A stretch of 64,000 nucleotides of DNA. Origin: Athripsodes cinereus. Taxonomy: Eukaryota; Arthropoda; Insecta; Trichoptera; Leptoceridae. Below are positions 2,165 through 64,000 of the stretch, one piece after another (within the stretch, counting starts at the first letter, position 1; every line of letters begins with the position of its first letter). The stretch lies in contig OX388309.1 in NCBI GenBank assembly GCA_947579605.1, positions 12,842,713 through 12,906,712 on the forward strand, written 5' to 3'. Below the pieces are notes generated by a model. That model worked only from the letters and a program-made list of their open reading frames with translations, was not told where the DNA came from and did no database searches. The translations under genes and the position numbers were made by a program.

Positions 2165-5100
2165 CATTTTTTTTTATATTTATTTCATCTTATTCTACCC
2201 TCAACTCTCCTTTCTCACAAACCTGACTAATTGGCACTTTAAAATTCTATAAACAGGGTTTCTTGAGTCTGCAATCGTTTTTGTTTTTTTTTAATGTAGA
2301 ACGGAAAACAAGATCTTGTTAAAGGAAGCATTCTAAAGTTAATCCTATCTAAAATATTAGGCACATCGTATTCGGACAAGCATATTTTTCTCAGGTTGCA
2401 TGCATCCAGCAAAACTCTTCACAATTCCAATTTAGGCAAATCTTTAATAAATACGGGATAATGCAATCTCTTCCTAACCAAACGAATGAATTTAGACTGA
2501 GTTCTCTCAACTTGATCGACATATTTTTTAAAATGTGGATTCCATACAGAGGAACAGTCCTCCAGCTTGGAGCGAAACAACGATAAGTACAAGTACAAAT
2601 ACGATTCATATAACCTAAATGACTTTGTAGATCTCAGAATAAATCCCAGTATTTTATTGCTCTCTTCGATAATTTTGTTCACGTGATCATCAAAGTGAAG
2701 CTCAGAGTCAAACACCACACCTAAATCTCTAATCTTATTTACTTCTTTTAAATCATGATTATGGATATTGTAAATTTATCGAATTTTGTTTCTATTTTTG
2801 GTAAAAGAGATCAGATTACACTTCTCCAGATTCAAGTGCAAGTTATTTCTTTTACAGTACTCGTGTAGTCTTTCCAAGTCCTCGTTAAGCATTTCATAGT
2901 CAAACAATAATTGAATTTGACAGTATATTTTTAAATCGTCCGCAAATAATAGAAGCTCTGAGTGGTCAAAGCACTTTTTTATGTTGTTTATGAATATCGT
3001 GAAAAGTAAAGGACCCAAAGAAGACCCCTGAGGGACACCAGATGTAACACTGACACTGCCAGATGAGTAACCGTTAAGTTTAACTGTCATCAATCTATCA
3101 GAAATATATGAGTCAATCCACCTTAGTTGAAAAAAGTCGATGTTCTACTTTATCAAATGCCTTTTGAAAGCCGATATAAATGGCATCCAACTGTATACGA
3201 TTGTCCATAGCTGAGAAAAAAAATCAGATTTGTTACTGTCGATCTTCCACTCATGAATCCATGCTGCTCTACAAGAAGATACGGCTTCAGGAAAAAAGTA
3301 ATTTGTTCACGAACCATACCCTCAAATATTTTTGAAATAGGTGATAGAATTAAAATTGGTCTGTAGTTACGAACGTCCGATTTGCTGCCAGATTTATGCA
3401 AAAGAATAATACTAGCCATCTTCCATTTGCATGGAAAGCATCCTTCTTGTAAACTCCTAATTTATTTATCGTGTCGAAACCCAGAGAAAAAACCCATCAA
3501 ACTGATTTCCAGTACTGCGCAAAACGCGCAGCAGGTGGAGATGCGTCAAAAATATCCTCCATAGTGCAAGTGACAGGGCACAATGGACACTCCAACAAGT
3601 GTGGCATAGTCTGTGCTGCACCACAGTCACACGCTCCGGATTCGTCCTGTAGGAAGCCCAATCGTTCTCTATTGTCGCGGCAGTTTCCTACACCAGATCT
3701 CAGTCAATTTAGGGTTTTCCATGTCCCATAGTCTAGTTTGCCTCCTGCAGCAAGGTGTTCTAATAAATGTCAGATACAATGGTTTGGTTAAATGACTTAC
3801 ACATCTCTTTAATATATTGGTGCTAGACCATCAGGGCCAACTCCTTTTGTCTCATCTATACCTAATAAACGTTTATGAATATCAGATTTCAAGATATTAA
3901 CCATGGATAAACATGAGTTAGTTAAAATATTTTCCAATTCTTTAGTATTAGAATCATGCAAATTATTCAGTGAAAATACAGAACCAAAAAACGTCGAAAA
4001 CAAGTTTGCAATTCCCTCTGGATCGCTCGAAGTCTGGTCACCGTCACCCGTTACCCTTGGATAGCCTCTAGATTCTTTAAGGGAATTCACGAATGAAAAG
4101 AAAGACTTGACATTGCCCTTAAGTGACTTCTCAGTGTTATTAATAAAAGACCTATAATCGTGATTCTGCGACAACTTCAACTGAGCTCTTAGTTGAAAAA
4201 ATAAATTGTAGTCAGAATCATTACGGTTCATCTTCAACTTACGCCAAGCCTTAGACTTCTCTTAAACAATAACAGAATTCTATTAGAGAACCATTTGGGA
4301 AAATTATTAGGTGACACCCTCTTCATATGTAGGTGTATGCTTCTCAATTATTGGCAAAACATAACCATAAAAAGATTCAATCATCTTATTCACCGGTCCG
4401 TTTCCCAAAACACTGACCCAATCAACACTTTGTAGTTCAAAATTTATTTCCGAAAAGTTTGACTTAAAGTATATTAATTTCTGGATCATATTTTGAGACA
4501 AATCCTCAGCAATTTCAAACTCATAATCTATCAACAGTGAAGGATAGTGTGAATCCTTACCAACCAGTGGAGAGTCACATCTGGTAACAGAACACGGAAT
4601 AGTTGAAAGAACTAAATCCAAGATAACTTGATTGCTGTTATAAACTCCGTTAGACTGAAACATATTGAGAAAAGATATAGATTCTATCAAATACTGCGCA
4701 ACAGGACACGAATAAGAATACGGAACAAAGATTGAATCAACATCGGGGTCTTTTTTCCATTGGATTGTTGGGATATTGGAATCTCCAATAAGACAAATAT
4801 CCGTTTTGCCGTAATAGCTGATTAAACGTTCAGATATACTTTAAAAAAAGATGTTTTAAGTATCTAAGGATGTGGAAGGCGGTATATACATATACTACAC
4901 CCAGTAGCGGTGAGCATTTTTTCATGCGTTACCGATGAAAAACGAATACTGGTAAAAAAAACTTTCACCAGTATCATCCCAAACAAGAGTGGATGAATAT
5001 CCTAGTGTCCGATCCACAGCAATTAAGACCCCACCTCCATCCCTTTTACCACTCAACATGAAATCCCTATCCTTGCGGTAAACTGTATATTCGTTTTGAA

Positions 5101-5332
5101 AAAGTTCGCTGTCAAATATGCCACAATTTAGCCAAGCTTCCGTCAGAACAATTATATCATAACTATTTGCAAATAAGTTTGCTCTAAACTCCTCGATCTT
5201 AGTCTTCAAGCCCCGAAAATTCTGAGAGAATACTTTAGTGTGGTTCACCTTGTAGTATGATATAAATATTCCTTAAATAGAATATAAAATTATTGTAGGG
5301 CCCTATACTCATAGCAGTTGTAATACTTAAAA
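2165..5332 (-). pseudogene. CR1/Jockey-like LINE, 5'-truncated and decayed (endonuclease + RT)
   Basis: Minus-strand non-LTR retrotransposon relic. In protein order: APE endonuclease start (FSQNFRGLKTK, IIVLTEAWLN, GGGVLIAV) at 5248-4922; endonuclease C-terminus and linker at 4690-4307; pre-RT segment ending GVGPDGLAPIY at 4237-3809; RT fingers (ASIILLHKSGSKSDVRNYRP) at 3419-3153; RT palm with SGVPQGSSLGPLLFTIFIN and the catalytic box LLLFADDLKIY at 3093-2776; thumb/C-terminus at 2718-2400, decaying toward 2250. The pieces lie in different frames with stops, so it is dead. A poly-A tail (T-run on the plus strand) follows 2165. CAAACATATA (10 bp) is present at 2155-2164 and 5333-5342, a likely target duplication. 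ORF1 is missing. The RT is interrupted near 3471-3761 by another LINE. The clade is inferred from motifs only. Confidence 0.85.
3471..3761 (-). pseudogene. LINE 3' end nested inside the CR1/Jockey-like RT
   Basis: A minus-strand insertion that splits the host LINE between PLYLTFI (3762 onward on its minus strand) and the SLQEGCFPCKW segment at about 3455. Its reading frame gives GGKLDYGTWKTLN, RLRSGVGNCRDNRERLGF, then a C-terminal zinc-finger-like stretch (CDCGAAQTMPHLLECPLCP) and a stop after AARFAQYWKSV. This Cys/His arrangement is typical of the extreme C-terminus of certain LINE ORF2 proteins. One in-frame TGA interrupts it. No clear target duplication was found, so the boundaries are good to about 10 bp. 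Confidence 0.75.
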
Positions 5333-14499: not shown

Positions 14500-16124
14500 A
14501 ACAACAAATTTAAGCTGCAAATTAACTGGTTTTATTACTGTTTGTGATTATTTGTACTGTCATAGCATCATTTACAGTTCATTGCAAAAAATATAGGCAA
14601 ATATCATATTTAGTCTTGAACTCAACAGGTAGTTAAAAATATTCTTTTGCAATGTATTAAAGTAGGTACCTACTTAAAAAAATATATACTTCATAATTTA
14701 AGCTGCAAATTATTCGGTTTTATTGCGGTTTGTTATTATTTGTACTGTCATAGCATCATTTACAAAAAATATAGGCAAATATCGTATTTAGTATTGAACT
14801 CAACAGGGAGTTAAAAATATTCTTTTGCAATGTATTAAAGTAGGTACCTACTTAAAAAAATAAATACTTCATAATTTAAGCTGCAAATTAACTGGTTTTA
14901 TTACGGTTTGTTATTATTTGTACTGTCATAGCATCATTTACAAAAAATATAGGCAAATATCATATTTAGTCTTGAAATCAACAGGGAGTTAAAAATATTC
15001 TTTTGCAATGTATTAAAGTAGGTACCTTCTTACAAAAATATATACTTCATAATTTAAGCTGCAAATTATTTGGTTTTATTGCGGTTTATTATTATTTGTA
15101 CTGTCATAGCATCATTTACAAAAAATATACGCAATTATCGTATTTAGTCTTGAACTCAACAGGGAGTTAAAAATATTCTTTTGCAATATATTAAAGTAGG
15201 TACCTACTTAAAAAAATAAATAGGTACTTCATAATTTAAGCTGCAAATTAACTGGTGTTATTACGGTTTGTTATTATTTGTACTGTCATAGCATCATTTA
15301 CAAAAAATATAGGCAAATATCATATTTAGTCTTGAACTCAACAGAGAATTAAAAATATTCTTTTGCAATGTATTAAAGTAGGTACATACTTAAAAAAATA
15401 TATACTTCATAATTTAAGCTGCAAATTATTTGGTTTTATTGCGGTTTATTATTATTTGTACTGTCATAGCATCATTTACAAAAAATATACGCAAATATCG
15501 TATTTAGTCTTGAACTCAACAGGGAGTTAAAAATATTCTTTTGCAATGTATTAAAGTAAGTACCTACTTAAAAAATACATACTTCATAATTTAAGCTGCA
15601 AATTATTTGGTTTTATTGCGGTTTATTATTATTTGTACTGTCATAGTATCATTTACAAAAAATATACGCAAATATCGTATTTAGTCTTGAACTCAACAGG
15701 GAGTTAAAAATATTCTTTTGCAATGTATTAAAGTAGGTACCTACTTAAAAAAATAAATACTTCATAATTTAAGCTGCAAATTAACTGGTGTTATTACGGT
15801 TTGTTATTATTTGTACTGTCATAGCATCATTTACAAAAAATATAGGCAAATATCATATTTAGTCTTGAACTCAACAGAGAATTAAAAATATTCTTTTGCA
15901 ATGTATTAAAGTAGGTACATACTTAAAAAAATATATACTTCATAATTTAAGCTGCAAATTATTTGGTTTTATTGCGGTTTGTTATTATTTGTACTGTCAT
16001 AGCATCATTTACAAAAAATATAGGCAAATATCGTATTTAGTCTTGAACTCAACAGGGAGTTAAAAATATCCTTTTGCAATATATTAAAGTACTGTTTTAA
16101 AAAAATACATACTTCATAATTTAA
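14500..16124. repeat. Satellite array, nine ~178-bp units with A/B alternation
   Basis: Taking AAGCTGCAAATTA as unit start, units begin at 14512, 14700, 14878, 15056, 15238, 15416, 15593, 15771 and 15949, spacing 177-188 bp. Two subtypes differ at linked positions: A has AACTGG...CATATTTAG, B has ATTTGG or ATTCGG...CGTATTTAG. The order is A B A B A B B A B. Units 5 and 8 share private variants (TGGTGTTATT, CAGAGAATT). Most units carry the palindrome GTAGGTACCTAC. The last unit decays after 16080. No coding potential. Confidence 0.92.
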
Positions 16125-49488: not shown

Positions 49489-50324
49489 ACAAAATCTATT
49501 TTTAATTATGTTTTAAAACATAAATTCAAGTTCAATATTCAATAATTTTATTCAAATTGCTATTAAAGGTTTGGTCAGGAGAAAAACAAGAAACGGAAAC
49601 GAAAACAAGGAAGATATATCTTAAAAAGGGCTGGTTGGAAAAATGCAGCTCTGTGATCAAATGCAGGATCGCGTAGATCTCGAAAATTAACACTTGCTGA
49701 CCAAACTGAACAGGAGAGTACGTATTTATTGTTTAATAAGTTTTGAATGTCATTGTAAAAACGATGCGTATTTCTTATTCATATTATGAGCCAATATGCA
49801 TTATTTTATCAATAAGAACTTCTCCATAAAAATGTTTGCTGATATTTTGATTCATGTTAATTAGCAGCACAGTCAAAGCAGAATTAATTTATTTTCTCCC
49901 AAAAATATTTATTCCAAAAATAAATACACACAATATGGTTATAATAGTAGTACAAACAGAATAATTGGCCTATAATAATGAGTTCATTCACGTAGAAAAC
50001 CATTGTCACACACGAATGACGATGTGTGGGAAAACCCACACACAATCCTACGTTCTAATAACAAAATCAATGCGAGCAATTTTCTGCAATAATTTGTGAC
50101 ATAAATTACTCTACTTGTATTGAAAAATATCACTGCTACATAGTAGGTAGGTACAATATTTACAGATCACAAAACACCAACAATTTTTATTATTTACATA
50201 TAATAAAATAATTCAGAATAATTTCACATTTTTTTCAAGCAGGAAAATATTCTTTCGCGTAAGAATTGTTTCCTTTTTTATCTCACACATTTAATAACTG
50301 ATAATTCCCTCTATAATAGCGATA
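49489..50324. other. AT-rich DNA without a recognisable gene
   Basis: No supported feature. Confidence 0.4.
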
Positions 50325-52512
50325 AGCCATAGAACATTCTGCATTCTGTCTCCCAACCAGTTTGGATTCACTCAGGGAAGAAATACGGAGGACGCAATTA
50401 CTACTCTAACAGAATATGTATCAGGTAATTTAGACAAGGGCAGGAAATGTATTGGTATATTTTTAGACCTGGCAAAGGCTTTCGATACCGTGTCGCACAC
50501 AATCCTACTCAAGAAACTCGAGCAAATGGGTGTCAGAGGTCTATCTCAGAGGTGGTTTACTTCTTATTTGGCGAGACGGAGACAGTCGGTTCGTGTTGGA
50601 GAGTGGAAGAGTGGCGGTCGCCCCTGTGGAGCCTATGGAGTTCCTCAGGGTAGCATACTGGGGCCTCTTCTGTTTTTGGTATACATAAACGATTTTTGCG
50701 AAAAAAAACTTTTAGGGGGTAAAGTTATCACATTTGCGGACGACACTGTCCTTTTGTTTGAAGGTAAAGATTGGTGTACCGTTTCCCAGCTCGCTCAACG
50801 GGGTTTTGACGAAGCAAGCTCGTGGTTGAATGAGAATCTATTGACTCTGAATACGGAGAAAACTAAAGTGGTTTGTTTTCATATAAGCGCACGGTCACTC
50901 CCGCCCAGCGATGTTGAGATTCATGTACACTCAGATTATGGAAGTTCAACTCAAAAAATAGAACTCGTGCAGAATGTTAAGTATCTTGGTGTACAGATCG
51001 ATTCGAATTTGAGCTGGAAAGCTCACGCTTGCATTCTAAATACACGAGTAAGAAAACTCATATACTTGTTCAGGCGACTTAGAGAGATCCTAGATTTCCC
51101 ATTGTTGCGCTCGGTGTACTATGCGCTGTGCTACTCCATTGTGAATTATGCAATTTTGAGTTGGGGGGGTGCGGCCGCAAGTGTGTTGAGTTCGTTGACC
51201 AGGGCACACAGAATAGTGTTAAAGGTGATGTGTGGACATCCCTACATCTATCCAACGGGGGATTTACTGAGGGAGTGTCATGCCTTGGACGTGAGACAGA
51301 TTTATATTTTAAGGTTAGCTGAATATCACCATGGAACAGCACCTGCGATTCCGTCTGCTACGCACCTGCATTTCACCAGACAGGTTTCTGATCAGAGACA
51401 TTCTCAAGTGGAGACAAATACAACCTTCCGCCAGCGATTCCATACTGTATTGGCTCCGAAGGTGTATAACTCACTTAAGTTAGAGTGGAGACTCTTGCGG
51501 GGTGACGGCGCATTTAGGGGTGTGATTAAGAGGCATCTTGTTGATATTGGGGTGGATGAGTCGGAGGCCTTACTGAGGTTTTTGGTGTGATGGGGTGAGT
51601 GTTGTTGTTGTTGCTTTTTTATTGATGTTCTTAGATTTCTTGGATTGAGAACTTGTTCAGTTACACATTCGCTCACTCTCGTATTTGCCCGCGAACTCAC
51701 TCATTGTCATACATAGCTTTTTACCTGAACTAATAAACTAACACACTGTTGAATCAGCCGCTAACCTATTGACTCGCTCATTCACTGGCTTTTGCTGGCA
51801 TTCAGGGCTCATTGCGAAGCCCAGTGCACTGGCGTGAACATTGGAAAACTCACCATCTCATTATTGAAGACTTATATACTGACGTTCATGACAATTATTA
51901 CTAACCCAACTAACACAGCCAATAATGACTCATTCGCAGACAGATTTCACTCATTGACATTACTAGATTATTCTCTGACCCATTTTTGTATTGTAGTGTG
52001 TGTTTATTTTTGTAATTGACCGTATTGTGGAGACATGTTTGTAAATAATTGATTTTGTTTGACTAGATGTTTTTTATTAATTAATTGTAAGGTTTTAGCT
52101 TTCTTTTTTTATTTTTGCTAACTTCAAAAGCTCTATTGTTTTGTATCTCATTTGTATTTCTGCCACAACACAGCCCTTTGGCTAGTGTGGAAGACATTTT
52201 TTGTGATTGTATTAAGTATGTTTTTTATTTTATTTTATTTTATTTTATTTTCACAATATTTAGAATCAAACAGTCGTTACACAATATGTTGACAATTAAT
52301 ATATTTGACATGTAGACCAGCGAAGATTCCACTCTTACCAGAAATGTTTCAATCTTGAGGAAAAAAAAGTAAAAGTTAAAATGCTCCAAAAAAGTCAAAG
52401 TAAATTTAAATTTAAAAACAACGATAATACAATACTTAAATATGTTCAACTGTGTTATAATGAAAATGTAAAGACGATATTATTATTTGAATAAAATTAT
52501 TATTATTATTAT
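50325..52512 (+). mobile_element. 5'-truncated Jockey/CR1-like LINE with ~900-bp 3' UTR and ATT tail
   Basis: A plus-strand LINE beginning inside the RT domain at about 50325-50345 and ending in (ATT)n at 52494-52512. After the ORF stop at 51590 there is a long 3' region with TTG repeats (51601-51615), TCACTC-rich sequence and a TTTTA repeat (52225-52250). The clean frame and simple tail suggest a moderately recent insertion. I could not identify a convincing target duplication, so the 5' boundary is approximate. Confidence 0.78.
50343..51590 (+). pseudogene. Truncated LINE reverse transcriptase, frame intact (~415 codons)
   Basis: Open without a stop from ILSPNQFGFTQGRNTEDAIT (50349 onward); the first ATG (50490) is not a real start because the fragment begins mid-protein. 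RT motifs in order: FLDLAKAFDTVSH (catalytic Asp), YGVPQGSILGPLLFLVYIND, ITFADDTVLLFEG (the FADD box), WLNENLLTLNTEKTK, VKYLGVQIDSNLSWKAH, YALCYSIVNYAILSWGG, and TTFRQRFHTVLAPKVYNSL near the end. Endonuclease, ORF1 and the RT N-terminal part are absent, so it cannot retrotranspose alone. The relic at 61258-62450 is a diverged copy of the same family. Confidence 0.88.
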
Positions 52513-54225: not shown

Positions 54226-54238
54226 TACAATAACTTGA
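54226..54238. repeat. 5' target-site duplication of the I-like LINE
   Basis: TACAATAACTTGA, identical to 60099-60111. Confidence 0.95.
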
Positions 54239-54479
54239 AGTTCTGTTTTGGATTTTGTGAAGTGTACACGTGCATTCTGTTTGTATCGCTGCACCGCTGG
54301 ATCCAGATAAGAGTTTTTGTAACAATATTAATTATTGAAAAAAATAATTTAATTATTCATTAAGTTTTTTCAAGGTTTTTCAATTCTAGTTTAATTTTTT
54401 CTTTATTTTATTAGTTTTAGTTCAACATTCTGGTAAGTTTTTTTTTATATATTATTGGTTAATTCTATTGTATCTCTAA
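54239..54479 (+). promoter_or_regulatory. LINE 5' UTR with candidate internal promoter (DPE-like)
   Basis: Taking the base after the target duplication as +1, ACACGTG lies at +28 to +34 (54266-54272). The arthropod downstream promoter element has consensus RGWYVT(G) at that position; six of seven bases fit, with the second differing. I-factor and Jockey elements are known to use such internal promoters. There is no TATA box. The rest of the leader is T-rich. The promoter assignment is inference from position and match. Confidence 0.5.
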
Positions 54480-55946
54480 ATGGATGTCGATAAACCTCCA
54501 ATTCCTCCAATTCCCCCCGATCCTCCAGATGTCAAAAAACGCAAAAGAAGTAATCTGGAGAGTTCTGATCTCTCTGTACCTTCCAACCTACCAACAACCT
54601 CTCAAACTTCTATAGATGATAATATACATCTAAATAATAATACTTCTTCTTCTAACACTCCTATTGTAATCACTTCTTCTTCTACTACTCCTTTAGCTGC
54701 AGTTCGTAATCACTTTTACTCTGAAAAGTCTCGCGGTCCATTTATCGTTCACGTTCAACATACCGACTCGAAACCTATTCATCCTATGGATTTTGGTCGG
54801 TTTATCTTCTCGAAGAATGTTAAAAATGTGGTTAACGGATCAATTAAGGCAGAGGGGAGATTCAAAATATCAATAGAATTTGTAAGCGGAGTAGCTGCCA
54901 ACAATTTTATCAAGAACATTTTTATTAACTCTAACTCTCTATACAAGGCTTACATACCCACTTTTAACGTCTCTCGCATGGGGTTAATAAGAAGGATATC
55001 CACAAATGTGACGGATGAGGAAATTATTGCTTCATTGCGCCATTCGAATCAAAACATTGGAGACGTCCTAAAAATAAGACGTTTAAATTACAAGGATAAA
55101 TTCTCGGAAACGCCGTCATGGAAACCATCCAATACCATTGTAATAACGTTTGAAGGTCAGGTTTTGCCGAACAAAGTTTATATTTTCTACAACTCATTCA
55201 CAGTGGAAAAATATTTTTATCCGACTATCCAGTGCTTCCAATGTCTTAAATTTGGACATTCGAAGGTAGCATGTAGATCAGCGGTCAAATGTTATAACTG
55301 TGGAGGAAACCACTCGTCAGAAAGTTGTTCAGCACAAATAGTTAAATGTTATAACTGTAAAGGTGAACATAAAGCCATAAGTTCTATTTGCCCTGAGCTT
55401 ACGCGCCAGAAAGCTATAAAATATGCTATGGCATCCGAAAATATCTCCTTTTTCCAAGCCTCCAAGTTGATCCCACCTAGTGGTAAATCAAGTTATGCTG
55501 AAGTTACTGCCAAACCAGTAACGTCATCTCCCCTTCCTCCTCCATCTAGCTCATTAGCTCCCACAAACGTGGTAACTTCCAAAAGTACATTAACTTCACA
55601 CACAAGGGGTAAGTTCAGGTATAGAACTCCCATTAGTACTGGGTACAGCAAAGATGATCATAATAATCTACTTTTCTATCCTAACGGTACATCATGTACA
55701 ATGGCCTCCAACGGATGTGCTTATCCTCCTGAACCAGAATCCAATATTCAACAAGAAACAGTTTACATAAATGATAACCTCCGTAAAAACCTTGCCAATG
55801 ACAATAATAACTTCTTGAAAGTAATGATCACGATGCTTATAGAACTTCTTTCTTCTAAAAATTCCCAACCGTACAACGCAGCTTCTTTAATTACTTCCCT
55901 TCAATCCTTCGTAGCTGGAGATGGCTCCACAACTCCAGAGAACTAA
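54480..55946 (+). CDS. LINE ORF1: nucleic-acid-binding Gag-like protein with three zinc knuckles
   Basis: A 488-residue ORF1 protein, expected to bind the element's RNA and form the RNP delivered to target DNA. Residues 1-70 are a low-complexity Pro/Ser/Thr/Asn-rich head (PPIPPIPPDPP, then KKRKR, a possible nuclear localisation signal). A middle domain (about 85-245) containing RGPFIVHVQHTD and RMGLIRRISTNVTDEEI resembles the RRM-like region of I/Jockey ORF1 proteins. It is followed by three CCHC knuckles: C252-x2-C255-x4-H260-x4-C265, C271-x2-C274-x3-H278-x4-C283 and C290-x2-C293-x3-H297-x6-C304. The third has longer spacing than the canonical CX2CX4HX4C. A Pro/Ser linker and a C-terminal tail of about 180 residues follow. 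The ATG at 54480 is the first in the frame after a T-rich leader. Its last 26 nt overlap ORF2. No stop or frameshift. Confidence 0.92.
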   Translation: MDVDKPPIPPIPPDPPDVKKRKRSNLESSDLSVPSNLPTTSQTSIDDNIHLNNNTSSSNTPIVITSSSTTPLAAVRNHFYSEKSRGPFIVHVQHTDSKPIHPMDFGRFIFSKNVKNVVNGSIKAEGRFKISIEFVSGVAANNFIKNIFINSNSLYKAYIPTFNVSRMGLIRRISTNVTDEEIIASLRHSNQNIGDVLKIRRLNYKDKFSETPSWKPSNTIVITFEGQVLPNKVYIFYNSFTVEKYFYPTIQCFQCLKFGHSKVACRSAVKCYNCGGNHSSESCSAQIVKCYNCKGEHKAISSICPELTRQKAIKYAMASENISFFQASKLIPPSGKSSYAEVTAKPVTSSPLPPPSSSLAPTNVVTSKSTLTSHTRGKFRYRTPISTGYSKDDHNNLLFYPNGTSCTMASNGCAYPPEPESNIQQETVYINDNLRKNLANDNNNFLKVMITMLIELLSSKNSQPYNAASLITSLQSFVAGDGSTTPEN

Positions 55947-58900
55947 TGACATTACCATTCTCCAATGGAACAGCCGTAGTGCTGTTTCAAACAGATCAGA
56001 AATAATTCAGTTATTAAATACTCACAAGATTAAAATAGCCGCGATCTCTGAAACATGGTTTCCTCCAATGTCCCAGTTTGTTGTTCCCGGATACTCGATT
56101 GTCAGGGATGACAGATGTGATGGCAAAGGGGGTGCTGCCATTTTTATTCACTCCAGTATTCCATTCACACAAATTTCTCTTCCGTACATCCAATCAATGC
56201 AGATTGTCGCTGTAATAATTTGTGACATCACCTATGTATCCGTTTACATCCCACCAAGAAAAATATTTGACCTTACTTACTGGAATAACATAACCTCCAA
56301 ATTCTCCAAATCGTTTGTTATATTGGGAGATTGCAATGCACATTCGACTTCGTGGGGATGCGCATATACAGATATATCAGGCAGAAATGTTCTTGATTAT
56401 GCCGATAATTATGGATTATGTATACTGAATGATGGCCAACCAACTAGGTTCTGCTCTCCGGATCAACGCCCAAACGCCGTGGATATATCTCTATGTACGG
56501 CAGATCTGGCCCCCTTATTTATTTGGAGTATTATGAGTGACCCACATTCAAGTGATCATTTTCCGATTCTTTTACGCTTGCAGAAAATTGCCAAAATAAG
56601 TCAAATATCACGTTCTCCTCGTGGTTTCAATACTAAAAAAGCCAAATGGGAGGAGTTTAAGTCTTTGCTTTCTATTAATACCGCTCAATGTAAAGAAGCC
56701 TTAGGTGAATCCGATATTTCTCAGAAGGCGGAAGCAATTAAACAAATAACTCTCTCTGCTGCCAATATTTCTATTCCGAAATGCCATTCTAACCACAAAA
56801 AACCTTCAAATCCACCTTGGTGGGACGACGAGTGTTCCACAGCAGTTCTTGAACGTCGAATTGCAATACGATCATTTAAAAGGGACATGTCTTTTAGTAA
56901 CTTTCTTATAGCAAAACAGGCCCAGGCCGCGGCTAAAAGATTACTTAAAAGGAAAAAAAGACAAGGTTGGAAAAATTACTGCACGTCATTATCTCCAGAA
57001 ACGCCGTTGACTGAGGTGTGGAAGGCCATTAAACGCTTTCGTGGGGCGTTAGGGTCTAACAAATCCCATTCATCCTCTGGTGAATGGATATATGAATTTA
57101 CTGACAAATTAGCGCCTCCTTACGCTCCACAGATCTCAGAGCTTGCCACCCCCCATTCTTCAAAGCTGAATGTGTACTCCGAAATATCTCACCCATTCTC
57201 ATTAAATGAACTTAAATCAGCTATTGATTCAACAGGGGACTCAGCTCCGGGAGAAGATCTCATTCCATATTCTTTTATTAAGAAGTTTCCTGAAACTCTC
57301 CTTATACATTTACTCAATCTTTATAATGCCATTCTCTCCACTGGAGATGTGCCTGCACAATGGAAGAGACAAATTGTAATCCCAATTCCTAAGCCTGGCA
57401 AAGAGGCTGATTTAAGTAGCTCATATCGCCCTATTGCTCTGTCGTCATGTTTTCTAAAAATTCTAGAGAGGATGATAAAAATCCGACTAGAATGGTTTAC
57501 AGAGAGCAAGTCTACCCTACCTCCCTGGCAGTTCGGATTTAGAAAAGGTAAATCAACCCTTGATAGTTTAAGTGTAATTACAACAGATATTCGTATGGCA
57601 TTCGCCAAAAAATCTAATATTGCTGCGGCCTTTCTGGACATAAACAGTGCATATGATAACGTACTTCTTCCACTGGTAAAATCTAAATTACTAAGAATGG
57701 GAATCCCTTCCAATTTGTCCTTCTTGATTTTCAATATAATGTCCGAACGTCAAATCCTGTTGGAATCTCCTCAGGGAATGATAGAGAGAAACGTCTATAA
57801 AGGACTTCCGCAGGGTAGCGTGCTAAGTCCAATCTTATTTAATATTTATACTGCTGACTTACAATCATTTCTACCAAACTCCTGTTCCATTCTTCAATAT
57901 GCAGATGACTTTGTCGTGTATTCTTCAGACATCTCTATTCCCACTGCAGTAGCTAGGCTTCAGGAAGGCTTGAATACAATGAATACATGGCTCAAGGAAA
58001 ATGGCATGAGCTTGTCCCCATCGAAAAGTCAAGTAGTGATCTTCTCAAAAAAACACAGGATCCCTAACGTATCTATCCATCTGGACAATACATTGATTCC
58101 TGCGAGCGAATATGTAAAGTTTTTGGGAGTTATTTTTCATAGAAAGCTTAATTGGAACATGTACGTGGAGCACATTGTAACGAAATGCGAAAAGGGAATA
58201 AATGTCCTTAGAGCCATTTCCAGAGTCTGGTGGGGTTCACATCCCATTACCATGAAAACCCTTTATATTTCTCTGGTGCGCAGTCACTTGGATTATGGTT
58301 GCCAAATTCTTGATCCTCTACCAAGATACCTCGAGTTGAAACTGCAAATAATCCAATCCAAATGTCTGCGTATGATTTTAGGGGCGATGAAGTCCTCGCC
58401 CATTGATACATTGCAGGTAGAATGCGCAGAAATGCCTTTGAATTTGCGAAGAAAATCATTGACCTTCAAATTTTTATTAAAAAGGTACAATAATTCCTCA
58501 CACCCACTATGGAACGGACTCACTGCTCTCATGGAAATACAGTCCTCTCATGTAGCCCTACGGGCCAAGCCTATTTCAAATATGTGTTTCACTTTACAGG
58601 AGATCAATTCCCTCAATATTACTAGAAATGATTTTCACATTCAGATGTACTCAATTCCGTTTGAAACGATAGCTTATCAACCAGTAATTTGTACAACAAT
58701 AGATATTGATCGCTCGACCACTGAGAATTACGGTGAGTCCATAGTTCACAATTTGTTTATGTCCGAAATTTCCCGTAGATGGCCAGACTCCGTATCGGTA
58801 TTTACAGATGGGTCTAAATATCCTCAGATTGGTTGTGGAGCAGCTTTCTATATACCTGATCTAAAAATCGAGTCCAAATTTCGCCTTCCCAAAAATTCTT

Positions 58901-59652
58901 CCGTATTTACAGCGGAGTGTATTGCACTCAGAGAGGCTTTAAGTGAGATAATCAATCTTAGTATAGAAAAGTCTGTTATTTTTACTGACTCGCTTAGTCT
59001 TGTTATGAAACTGGATAGTAATGGCAATTATGACCCCTGTGATTACTTGTTCTGGACAATCAAAGAATTGCTATTTAATGCGATGATCAAGGGTTTGCAG
59101 ATTGCAATTGTGTGGATCCCTTCACATGCGGGCATTGGTGGAAATGAGAAAGCTGACCAATTAGCTAAGAGCGCTTGCTTAACAGGATCTGATCCTCAAA
59201 GATACCAGCGTCCTAGGAATGAATATTTACACGATTACGAGTCAAAACTAAAACAAGAATGGTTCAATGTTTGGCAATCTTCTTGCAAAGGGCTTCGTTA
59301 TAAAAATATCCAGTATACAATTCCTACTTCACCGTGGTATGCTGAAGGAAAATTATCGAAAGTCGATATTTCTTTAATATGCCGGATGAGAATCGGACAT
59401 TGTTCGGTCGCATCTCATTTGTTTAAAATCAAGGTCATTAACTCGCCCGCGTGCGAATGTGGAGCCGAAGAGGAGACAGTGGATCATATATTTTTTGAGT
59501 GTTCGCTGTTGAATCGGGAACAATTTATAAGTGAGATCCGACAACACAGTACTTCATTCCCTATAAATATGCAGTATCTCTTGTGTTTAAATAACAGTAG
59601 TGTTCATAAGAGTATTGCAAAGTTTTTGAAGGGAAACAATAAACTGATTTGA
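55921..59652 (+). CDS. LINE ORF2: APE endonuclease, reverse transcriptase, RNase H, CCHC
   Basis: A 1,243-residue polyprotein that would nick target DNA, copy the RNA at the nick and digest it. APE-type endonuclease at about 10-225: WNSRS, SETW (E44), GDCNAHS (D137, N139) and SSDHFP (D212, H213). Reverse transcriptase at about 440-740: KRQIVIPIPKPGK, YRPIALSSCFLKILE, FLDINSAYDN (D573), GLPQGSVLSPILFNIY and YADD (660-663). Thumb: FLGVIFHRKLNW. RNase H at about 958-1090 with all four acidic residues: FTDGSK (D963), TAECIA (E999), FTDS (D1023) and GNEKADQLAK (D1079), plus SHAGIGG. C-terminal zinc motif C1178-x-C1180-x8-H1189-x4-C1194. The ATG at 55921 lies in the +1 frame relative to ORF1, so termination-reinitiation or a frameshift at the overlap is likely. 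Every catalytic landmark looked for is present. Confidence 0.95.
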   Translation: MAPQLQRTNDITILQWNSRSAVSNRSEIIQLLNTHKIKIAAISETWFPPMSQFVVPGYSIVRDDRCDGKGGAAIFIHSSIPFTQISLPYIQSMQIVAVIICDITYVSVYIPPRKIFDLTYWNNITSKFSKSFVILGDCNAHSTSWGCAYTDISGRNVLDYADNYGLCILNDGQPTRFCSPDQRPNAVDISLCTADLAPLFIWSIMSDPHSSDHFPILLRLQKIAKISQISRSPRGFNTKKAKWEEFKSLLSINTAQCKEALGESDISQKAEAIKQITLSAANISIPKCHSNHKKPSNPPWWDDECSTAVLERRIAIRSFKRDMSFSNFLIAKQAQAAAKRLLKRKKRQGWKNYCTSLSPETPLTEVWKAIKRFRGALGSNKSHSSSGEWIYEFTDKLAPPYAPQISELATPHSSKLNVYSEISHPFSLNELKSAIDSTGDSAPGEDLIPYSFIKKFPETLLIHLLNLYNAILSTGDVPAQWKRQIVIPIPKPGKEADLSSSYRPIALSSCFLKILERMIKIRLEWFTESKSTLPPWQFGFRKGKSTLDSLSVITTDIRMAFAKKSNIAAAFLDINSAYDNVLLPLVKSKLLRMGIPSNLSFLIFNIMSERQILLESPQGMIERNVYKGLPQGSVLSPILFNIYTADLQSFLPNSCSILQYADDFVVYSSDISIPTAVARLQEGLNTMNTWLKENGMSLSPSKSQVVIFSKKHRIPNVSIHLDNTLIPASEYVKFLGVIFHRKLNWNMYVEHIVTKCEKGINVLRAISRVWWGSHPITMKTLYISLVRSHLDYGCQILDPLPRYLELKLQIIQSKCLRMILGAMKSSPIDTLQVECAEMPLNLRRKSLTFKFLLKRYNNSSHPLWNGLTALMEIQSSHVALRAKPISNMCFTLQEINSLNITRNDFHIQMYSIPFETIAYQPVICTTIDIDRSTTENYGESIVHNLFMSEISRRWPDSVSVFTDGSKYPQIGCGAAFYIPDLKIESKFRLPKNSSVFTAECIALREALSEIINLSIEKSVIFTDSLSLVMKLDSNGNYDPCDYLFWTIKELLFNAMIKGLQIAIVWIPSHAGIGGNEKADQLAKSACLTGSDPQRYQRPRNEYLHDYESKLKQEWFNVWQSSCKGLRYKNIQYTIPTSPWYAEGKLSKVDISLICRMRIGHCSVASHLFKIKVINSPACECGAEEETVDHIFFECSLLNREQFISEIRQHSTSFPINMQYLLCLNNSSVHKSIAKFLKGNNKLI

Positions 59653-59925
59653 AAATCCTTCCCTACAAATTGATATTGTTTTAGAATAGAAATAATTTGT
59701 ATTCCCATGTATATAGATAGCTACAACATAGATAATAAACTGCTTTGAAAATCCGTCCCTACAAGTTGATATTATTTTGGAATAATAATAGTTTGTATTC
59801 ACTTGTATATAGATAGCTACTATATCGATAATAAACTGCTTTAAAAATCCGTCCCTACAAATTAATGTTATTTTAGAATAAGAATAATTTGTATTCACAT
59901 GTATATAGATAGCCACTATATAGAT
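59638..59925 (+). repeat. Three 96-bp tandem repeats across the ORF2 stop, each with AATAAA
   Basis: AATAAACTG begins units at 59638, 59734 and 59830 (spacing exactly 96 bp). Each runs through GAAAATCC.TCCCTACAA, AGAATA..AATA..TTGTATTC and GTATATAGATAGC. Unit 1 includes the last codons and TGA of ORF2, so the array grew out of the end of the coding region. Each unit carries an AATAAA hexamer, i.e. three potential polyadenylation signals. A minus-strand frame runs through all units only because 96 is a multiple of three. Confidence 0.92.
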
Positions 59926-60077
59926 AGGTATTATAAGTACCAATTAGTTGCGTTGTATCATTTTTTGTTTTTATGCTCGCTTCTAATGCGTAGTTGCGGT
60001 AGGATGTTATTTTGCAGTTTTGTTTGTTAATTTTATTTTTATTACGGCAAAATCACTCAGAATTGGGTGGAATGCCT

Positions 60078-60098
60078 AAATAATAATAATAATAATAA
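60078..60098 (+). repeat. (TAA)n 3' tail of the I-like LINE
   Basis: About seven TAA units directly abut the 3' target duplication. I-clade elements characteristically end in TAA repeats instead of poly-A. Confidence 0.9.
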
Positions 60099-60111
60099 TA
60101 CAATAACTTGA
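60099..60111. repeat. 3' target-site duplication of the I-like LINE
   Basis: TACAATAACTTGA, identical to 54226-54238. Confidence 0.95.
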
Positions 60112-61379: not shown

Positions 61380-61710
61380 TGCACACGATATGCGCACTAT
61401 GTACTATTATGCTATTCGGTTGTAAATTATGCTGTTTCGGGCTGGATTCTTGCAACCAAAAGTGTCTTATTTTACACGATATGCGCACTATATACTATTT
61501 ACACGATATGCGCACTATATACTATTATGCTATTCGGTTGTAAATTATGCTGTTTCGGGCTGGATTCTTGCAACCAAAAGTGTCTTATTTTACACGATAT
61601 GCGCACTATATACTATTTACACGATATGCGCACTATATACTATTATGCTATTCGGTTGTAAATTATACTGTTTCGGGCTGGATTCTTGCAACCAAAAGTG
61701 TCTTATTACC
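61380..61710 (+). repeat. 118-bp tandem duplication inside the LINE relic
   Basis: The block GCTATTCGGTTGTAAATTAT...CAACCAAAAGTGTCTTA occurs three times with a 118-bp period (near 61412, 61530 and 61648), separated by paired copies of CACGATATGCGCACTATATA. Because 118 is not a multiple of three, the repeated peptide appears in shifting frames. Confidence 0.88.
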
Positions 61711-63819: not shown

Positions 63820-64000
63820 ACAAATGTTACACGACGATATAATATAGGTAAGATGTATGTAAGTATGGCCGCACATGAAAGCGTGAATGACATAATTAAT
63901 GACAATAATTATACCTTTACAAATGTTACACGACAATATAATATAGGTAATATGTATGTAAGTATGGCCGCACATGAAAGCGTGAATGACATAATTAATG
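63820..64000. repeat. 99-bp tandem repeat, truncated by window end
   Basis: ACAAATGTTACACGAC begins at 63820 and again at 63919. The second unit is nearly identical through ATGTATGTAAGTATGGCCGC and AAGCGTGAATGACATAATTA up to the last base, so more units may follow outside the window. Confidence 0.88.

Follow-up and report, generated by a model that had tools for sequence, protein, structure and literature searches.

A full-length LINE of I-superfamily type among near-identical copies in the genome of Athripsodes cinereus

A 64,000-nucleotide stretch of contig OX388309.1 of the Athripsodes cinereus assembly (positions 12,842,713 to 12,906,712; here called the window) carries at 54226-60111 a long interspersed nuclear element (LINE) that an initial annotation, made from the sequence alone, had described as apparently intact, recently inserted and a candidate active source. 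This raises the question of how intact and recent this copy is and what place it holds among its relatives. The stretch 54226-60111 is a full-length non-LTR (long terminal repeat) retrotransposon between identical 13-bp duplications, and we are highly confident that it represents an autonomous LINE of I-superfamily type whose family kept inserting in this genome until very recently. The family has repeatedly retrotransposed, as seen from insertions with their own target site duplications (TSDs), near-identical copies, open frames and selection, and the copy studied here is a recent product of this process, one of many that are nearly identical. It is not clearly the fittest of them, and the evidence shows no parentage of any other copy.

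Structure and coding capacity of the element

The two TSDs (TACAATAACTTGA at 54226-54238 and, identical to it, 60099-60111; neither has a strand) form the perfect 13-bp duplication that the annotation had reported, though with an effective length of 11-13 bp given that the first one or two bases are inseparable from the TAA tail. Between them, all on the forward strand, lie a 5' untranslated region (UTR; 54239-54479) beginning with AGTTCTGTTTTG, a start also seen in other copies, then open reading frame 1 (ORF1; 54480-55946, 488 amino acids) and ORF2 (55921-59652, 1243 amino acids), both uninterrupted as annotated and overlapping by 26 nt. Three 96-bp tandem units (59638-59926) with 83-86 of 96 positions alike (86-90%) lead into the 3' UTR, and a terminal RNA hairpin with an internal loop (60046-60076), recognized from its fold z-score and its conservation in a sister family, directly precedes the tail, which consists of the TAAATAATAATA end followed by TAA repeats (60077-60098). 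That the element is real and beyond chance follows from its exceeding Pfam cut-offs and from the recurrence of its ends and frames in genomic copies with other TSDs. Scored against the consensus of the downstream promoter element (DPE), the 5' UTR holds a DPE-like ACACGT at +28 to +33 (54266-54271) that matches at 6/6 positions, as would about 3% of hexamers by chance at a fixed place. At the 5' end, Rfam gave no match at E up to 5, and the presence there of a self-cleaving ribozyme or another known RNA was set aside.

ORF2 encodes endonuclease (EN; N-terminal to around residue 216, PF14529/PF03372), reverse transcriptase (RT; residues 489-738, PF00078) and RNase H (residues 957-1086, PF00075) in this order within one frame, and all three profiles score above their Pfam cut-offs. 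Every catalytic residue named in the initial annotation is in place, and D137, H213, D573, A661, D662, D663, D963, E999, D1023 and D1079 are invariant across 120/120 homologues, while E44 is kept in 119 (with one gap), D212 in 118 and Y660 of the YADD motif (660-663) in 117, the other three having F. A C-terminal Cys/His motif (residues 1178-1194) follows, with its ligands C1178, C1180, H1189 and C1194 present in all 120 homologues; the zf-RVT profile gives 24.9 bits there, below its cut-off of 27.5 bits. Across the 179 columns with at least 95% conservation, this ORF2 deviates at 6, compared to a median of 3 departures (range 0-15) among the 120 homologues, 18 of which have 6 or more.

A Pfam search with ORF1 gave no match with an E of 0.1 or below. 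Its structure model has a mean pLDDT (predicted local distance difference test) of 61, better across residues ~80-330, and a Foldseek search of this model against the PDB returned NONO, SFPQ and IMP3, proteins with tandem RNA recognition motifs (RRMs), at a best E of 2.5e-5 though with a low TM-score (template modeling score; 0.16 by query) and a root-mean-square deviation around 11. The model thus points to RRM-like folds at approximately residues 88-251, ahead of three CCHC knuckles aligned at residues 252-304, whose 12/12 ligands are invariant among 15 aligned sequences, and of C-terminal helices after the knuckles.

Copies in the genome and the recency of their insertion

The initial annotation had suggested searching the assembly for copies and computing their divergence. 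We searched the 716 Mb genome (160 contigs) with the 5' 1762 bp and the 3' 1699 bp of the element as queries; these two end portions leave the 5' state of the loci C1:13538275, C4:33566877 and C2:27798072 outside the search. With 40 candidates scored of 259 for the 5' query and of 350 for the 3' query, all counts are lower bounds and include the copy studied here. At least 17 places match the 5' query over its full length at 98% or more (two of these from base 2), at least 22 match the 3' query in the same way, and at least 26 places at this level of identity reach the 3' end, five of them without a 5' partner among the 5' matches scored. Of these five, the one on C24 is a 5' truncation with a poly(A) tail and a TSD of its own, which was read by eye, while the one on C8 is truncated and shows no clear TSD. 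Near-identical copies are thus at hand, not only the old and diverged ones that would have spoken against a recent insertion, and blastn found no other copy inside the 64-kb window beyond short chance matches.

In addition to the copy in the window, 20 others (L018-L037) were read. Both frames have their full length of 488 and 1243 amino acids in 13/21 copies; L026 has frames of 488 and 1236 and L035 of 495 and 1243, and L030, L032, L033, L034, L036 and L037 are broken or interrupted. In L032, L034 and L037, the interruption amounts to several hundred to several thousand bases. The 14 copies L018-L031 are contiguous, full length and 99.3-99.8% identical to the copy in the window, which bears out its annotation as intact and recently inserted, and together with it they form a core set of 15 copies with a mean divergence of 0.40% (range 0.09-0.67%). 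Its closest kin are 10-13 substitutions away, the nearest being L021 with 10, and it has 7 private substitutions where core copies overall have 2-15 each; the trio L027-L029 is only 5-6 substitutions apart. TSDs of 10-15 bp, all different, flank 17/19 copies with both ends (12 bp in L032; in L025 found only if three extra 5' bases are allowed), and no 3' end of L034 or L037 lies within the stretch fetched. The first 12 bases of the AGTTCTGTTTTG-type start recur in 15/19 of the copies L018-L036, mostly preceded by a C that the copy in the window lacks.

Differences among the core copies carry the mark of selection. Their private coding substitutions comprise 45 nonsynonymous and 41 synonymous changes and 1 stop, and those common to at least two core copies 8 nonsynonymous and 7 synonymous changes. 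Under neutrality, the observed mutation spectrum predicts a nonsynonymous-to-synonymous ratio of 2.72, so that 45/86 nonsynonymous changes are a deficit (p = 4e-5). The ratio of nonsynonymous to synonymous substitution rates (dN/dS) is 0.18 for the copy in the window versus L035 (96% identity), 0.36-0.40 for closer pairs (with L033 and L031) and 0.37 for L035 versus L036. Purifying selection has therefore acted on recent branches of this LINE family. The deficit indicates that many private differences date from a time when their lineages still transposed under selection, and the insertions are hence younger than their raw divergence. The open frames of the copy in the window give, by themselves, a rough bound in which neutral drift beyond ~0.4% leaves a 5% chance of no break, assuming 0.1 indels per substitution. 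At the mutation rate of a butterfly, 2.9e-9 per site per generation, a divergence of 0.12% would be at most ~400,000 generations, a figure that gives the scale only and rests on a rate that may not be that of the host.

Some observations weigh against the reading of an autonomous LINE whose family kept inserting until very recently. The copies read were chosen as the best-scoring by their 5' end, which favors complete and intact ones, and the 96% copies L035 and L036 gave no TSD. The private changes of the copy in the window are 5 nonsynonymous and 2 synonymous, too few to judge, and one of them hits an ORF1 glycine kept in 38/41 homologues. Taken together, these private changes mean that this very copy may be weakened. 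As a candidate active source it is one of the 13/21 copies with both frames, but it has no special claim to that role.

How far could such observations be carried by other explanations? That the near-identical copies stem from segmental duplication or an assembly artefact is highly improbable, and no observation was found in its favor: the 17 copies with a TSD, spread across many contigs, each have a different one and different adjoining bases, the tails vary among near-identical copies, and even the truncated copy on C24 brings its own TSD. A family that has stopped moving, its copies left by a burst that recently came to an end and every one of them, including this one, by now silenced or weakened, deserves more thought, though we consider it rather unlikely. 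Every core copy has private substitutions, no two are identical (the minimum is 5 differences), and the copy in the window is changed at the conserved ORF1 residue. Set against this, the private substitutions still bear the imprint of selection, so that many of them come from transposing lineages, and the members of the L027-L029 trio differ from each other by merely 5-6 substitutions.

Classification and relatives

The architecture of the element, with two ORFs, an ORF2 of EN, RT, RNase H and Cys/His motif and an ORF1 of RRM-like folds and CCHC knuckles, supports its placement as an I-superfamily LINE, and the I-clade-like label of the initial annotation stands as a placement by architecture and not by phylogeny. 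The Drosophila I factor, as described in the available part of PMC2881922, likewise has two ORFs, three CCHC knuckles in ORF1 and an ORF2 in which an APE endonuclease, RT, RNase H and Cys/His motif follow each other. The available part of PMC3905857 uses the name Jockey-like for an ORF1 in which CCHC knuckles come after one or two RRMs, so that this feature is not specific to I. Neither among the best 120 of 796 ORF2 matches nor among the 41 ORF1 matches is any protein named as an I-clade reference.

An assignment to another RNase H-bearing clade (Nimb, R1, LOA or one without a name) instead of I proper is a serious contender, if one that we hold to be the less probable. It would fit the poly(A) found in 12/19 tails, given that, according to the accessible portion of PMC3747384, TAA repeats terminate the I element. 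The endonuclease match among the 60 solved structures shown, TRAS1, which we take to belong to the R1 clade, points the same way. On the other side stand the order of the ORF2 domains and the three ORF1 knuckles as in the I factor (PMC2881922, in the part available), and the TSDs of the 17 copies have no common fixed target.

The closest ORF2 relatives among the best 120 of 796 matches are JGI proteins, led by P0001 with 60% identity and followed by others at 48% and 46%, and five organism-named matches stand at 38-40%. These five and the organism-named ORF1 matches all come from Lepidoptera. Among them, ORF2 of P0029 (Parnassius), P0043 (Bombyx) and P0085 (Plutella) aligns over 99% of the length, with corresponding RT and RNase H active-site residues, yet at only 38-39% identity, and P0043 lacks a precomputed RNase H label. 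No relatives were detected in viral_contigs with a single protein or in a first search of genome_contigs, and searches with alignment A1 gave three matches in viral_contigs (two at 26% identity and one of 27 residues) and six in genome_contigs (23-28% identity), which lie on contigs catalogued as bacterial metagenome-assembled genomes (MAGs). These MAG-filed relatives were rejected as a guide to the 3' end because they are too distant. The LINE-like frames L004-L009, located on MAG-filed contigs, are probably eukaryotic contamination. As far as these homologue searches show, the element represents a new family of a known LINE kind; the literature was searched for this kind of element, so that the novelty claimed covers the sequence searches and not print.

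A conserved 3' hairpin with interchangeable tails

The 3' part of the element differs in two ways from the Drosophila I factor. The annotated TAA tail holds for the copy in the window and for L026, the only two TAA-repeat tails among the 19 copies with a 3' end, but not for the family: after TAAATAATAATA, 12 of these copies have poly(A), 1 has a mixed tail and 4 have GAATA-type tails. With the I element ending in TAA and most tails of this family being poly(A), the tail adds little weight to an I-clade placement. The other difference is a 3'-terminal hairpin kept between two families. The fold of 60020-60099 has a z-score of -3.95, with 0/200 shuffles as good. A sister LINE family (L038-L043) is 66% alike in ORF1 DNA and, at the amino acid level, 55-59% alike in the C-terminal part of ORF2. 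Within the 3' UTR, blastn (E up to 0.01) aligns the two families only over the terminal stretch, which is 79-88% alike. This stretch with its hairpin is common to 5/6 sister loci read, and the match to L040 ends before the hairpin. The five sister copies with their end in view all have poly(A) tails.

When two sister-family copies were compared to five of this family, 10/11 hairpin pairs were unchanged and one was broken in both sister copies, and 0/11 pairs had both sides changed, so that none was compensatory. The sister hairpin also folds less well (z -1.62; 12/200 shuffles as good). The support for the hairpin is hence sequence conservation and not covariation. A conserved 3' stem-loop or a 3' UTR requirement characterizes the stringent-type LINEs UnaL2, ZfL2 and SART1 in the available parts of PMC4176376 and PMC3747384. 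By analogy, the conservation seen here suggests recognition by the RT, though these elements belong to other clades and hairpin recognition is inferred for ours. That this I-type LINE selects its template by the hairpin in a stringent manner, with poly(A), TAA and GAATA repeats as interchangeable tails, and is still mobile in this genome is a combination that we propose only tentatively. The conserved hairpin with mixed tails is the sole mildly unusual point of the element. The hairpin pattern had 0 matches in viral_contigs, and known RNAs in the 3' UTR were discarded because the only two Rfam matches there, with E 2.1 and E 3, were at the level of chance.

The 96-bp array starts in the last codons of ORF2, with the stop codon inside its first unit, and L035 and L036 are consistent, in their length and in how they match, with an array shorter by one unit. 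Because divergence among the units exceeds that among the copies, the array is older than this insertion. AATAAA hexamers are found upstream of the 3' end at the head of each unit (59638, 59734 and 59830), where they could end transcripts early.

In the life cycle that we propose, RNA polymerase II would start at the first base of the element, and the ORF1 protein, judged by its fold, may coat the RNA via its RRMs and zinc knuckles. The ORF2 protein would nick the target, recognize the conserved 3' hairpin with the short A/T-rich tail, use the nick to prime reverse transcription (target-primed reverse transcription) and remove the template with its RNase H. General knowledge of LINEs is unchanged by this element, but it offers a datable set of near-identical copies within a single genome. 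With their testable 3' recognition element and naturally occurring variation in the tail, these are useful for mobility studies of RNase H-bearing LINEs.

Other features

The six sister-family loci read have matched 3' parts that are 96-99.7% alike, and this family was probably also recently active.

The initial annotation had called all other coding sequence in the window broken, which fits what was seen in a Pfam scan of 10 other frames, out of 23 stop-to-stop frames of at least 110 amino acids, and in a tblastn search with 161 homologues, where further RT matches were confined to ~2-3 kb (-) and 50 kb (+). The one at 50298-51590 (+) is nevertheless open over 430 codons; it begins inside an RT domain that scores above the Pfam cut-off and is a fragment of another LINE. 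On the reverse strand, RT exceeds the cut-off at 2776-3144, part of a LINE at 2419-5272 that lies in five open pieces and has a weak endonuclease match, and weak RT/endonuclease matches below cut-off were seen at 37.2 kb and 4.9-5.3 kb. The window further contains a satellite at 14585-16124 (178 bp unit, 8.7 copies, 93% matches) and tandem arrays at 61383-61707 (118 bp units, 99% matches) and 63820-64000 (99 bp units, 97%).

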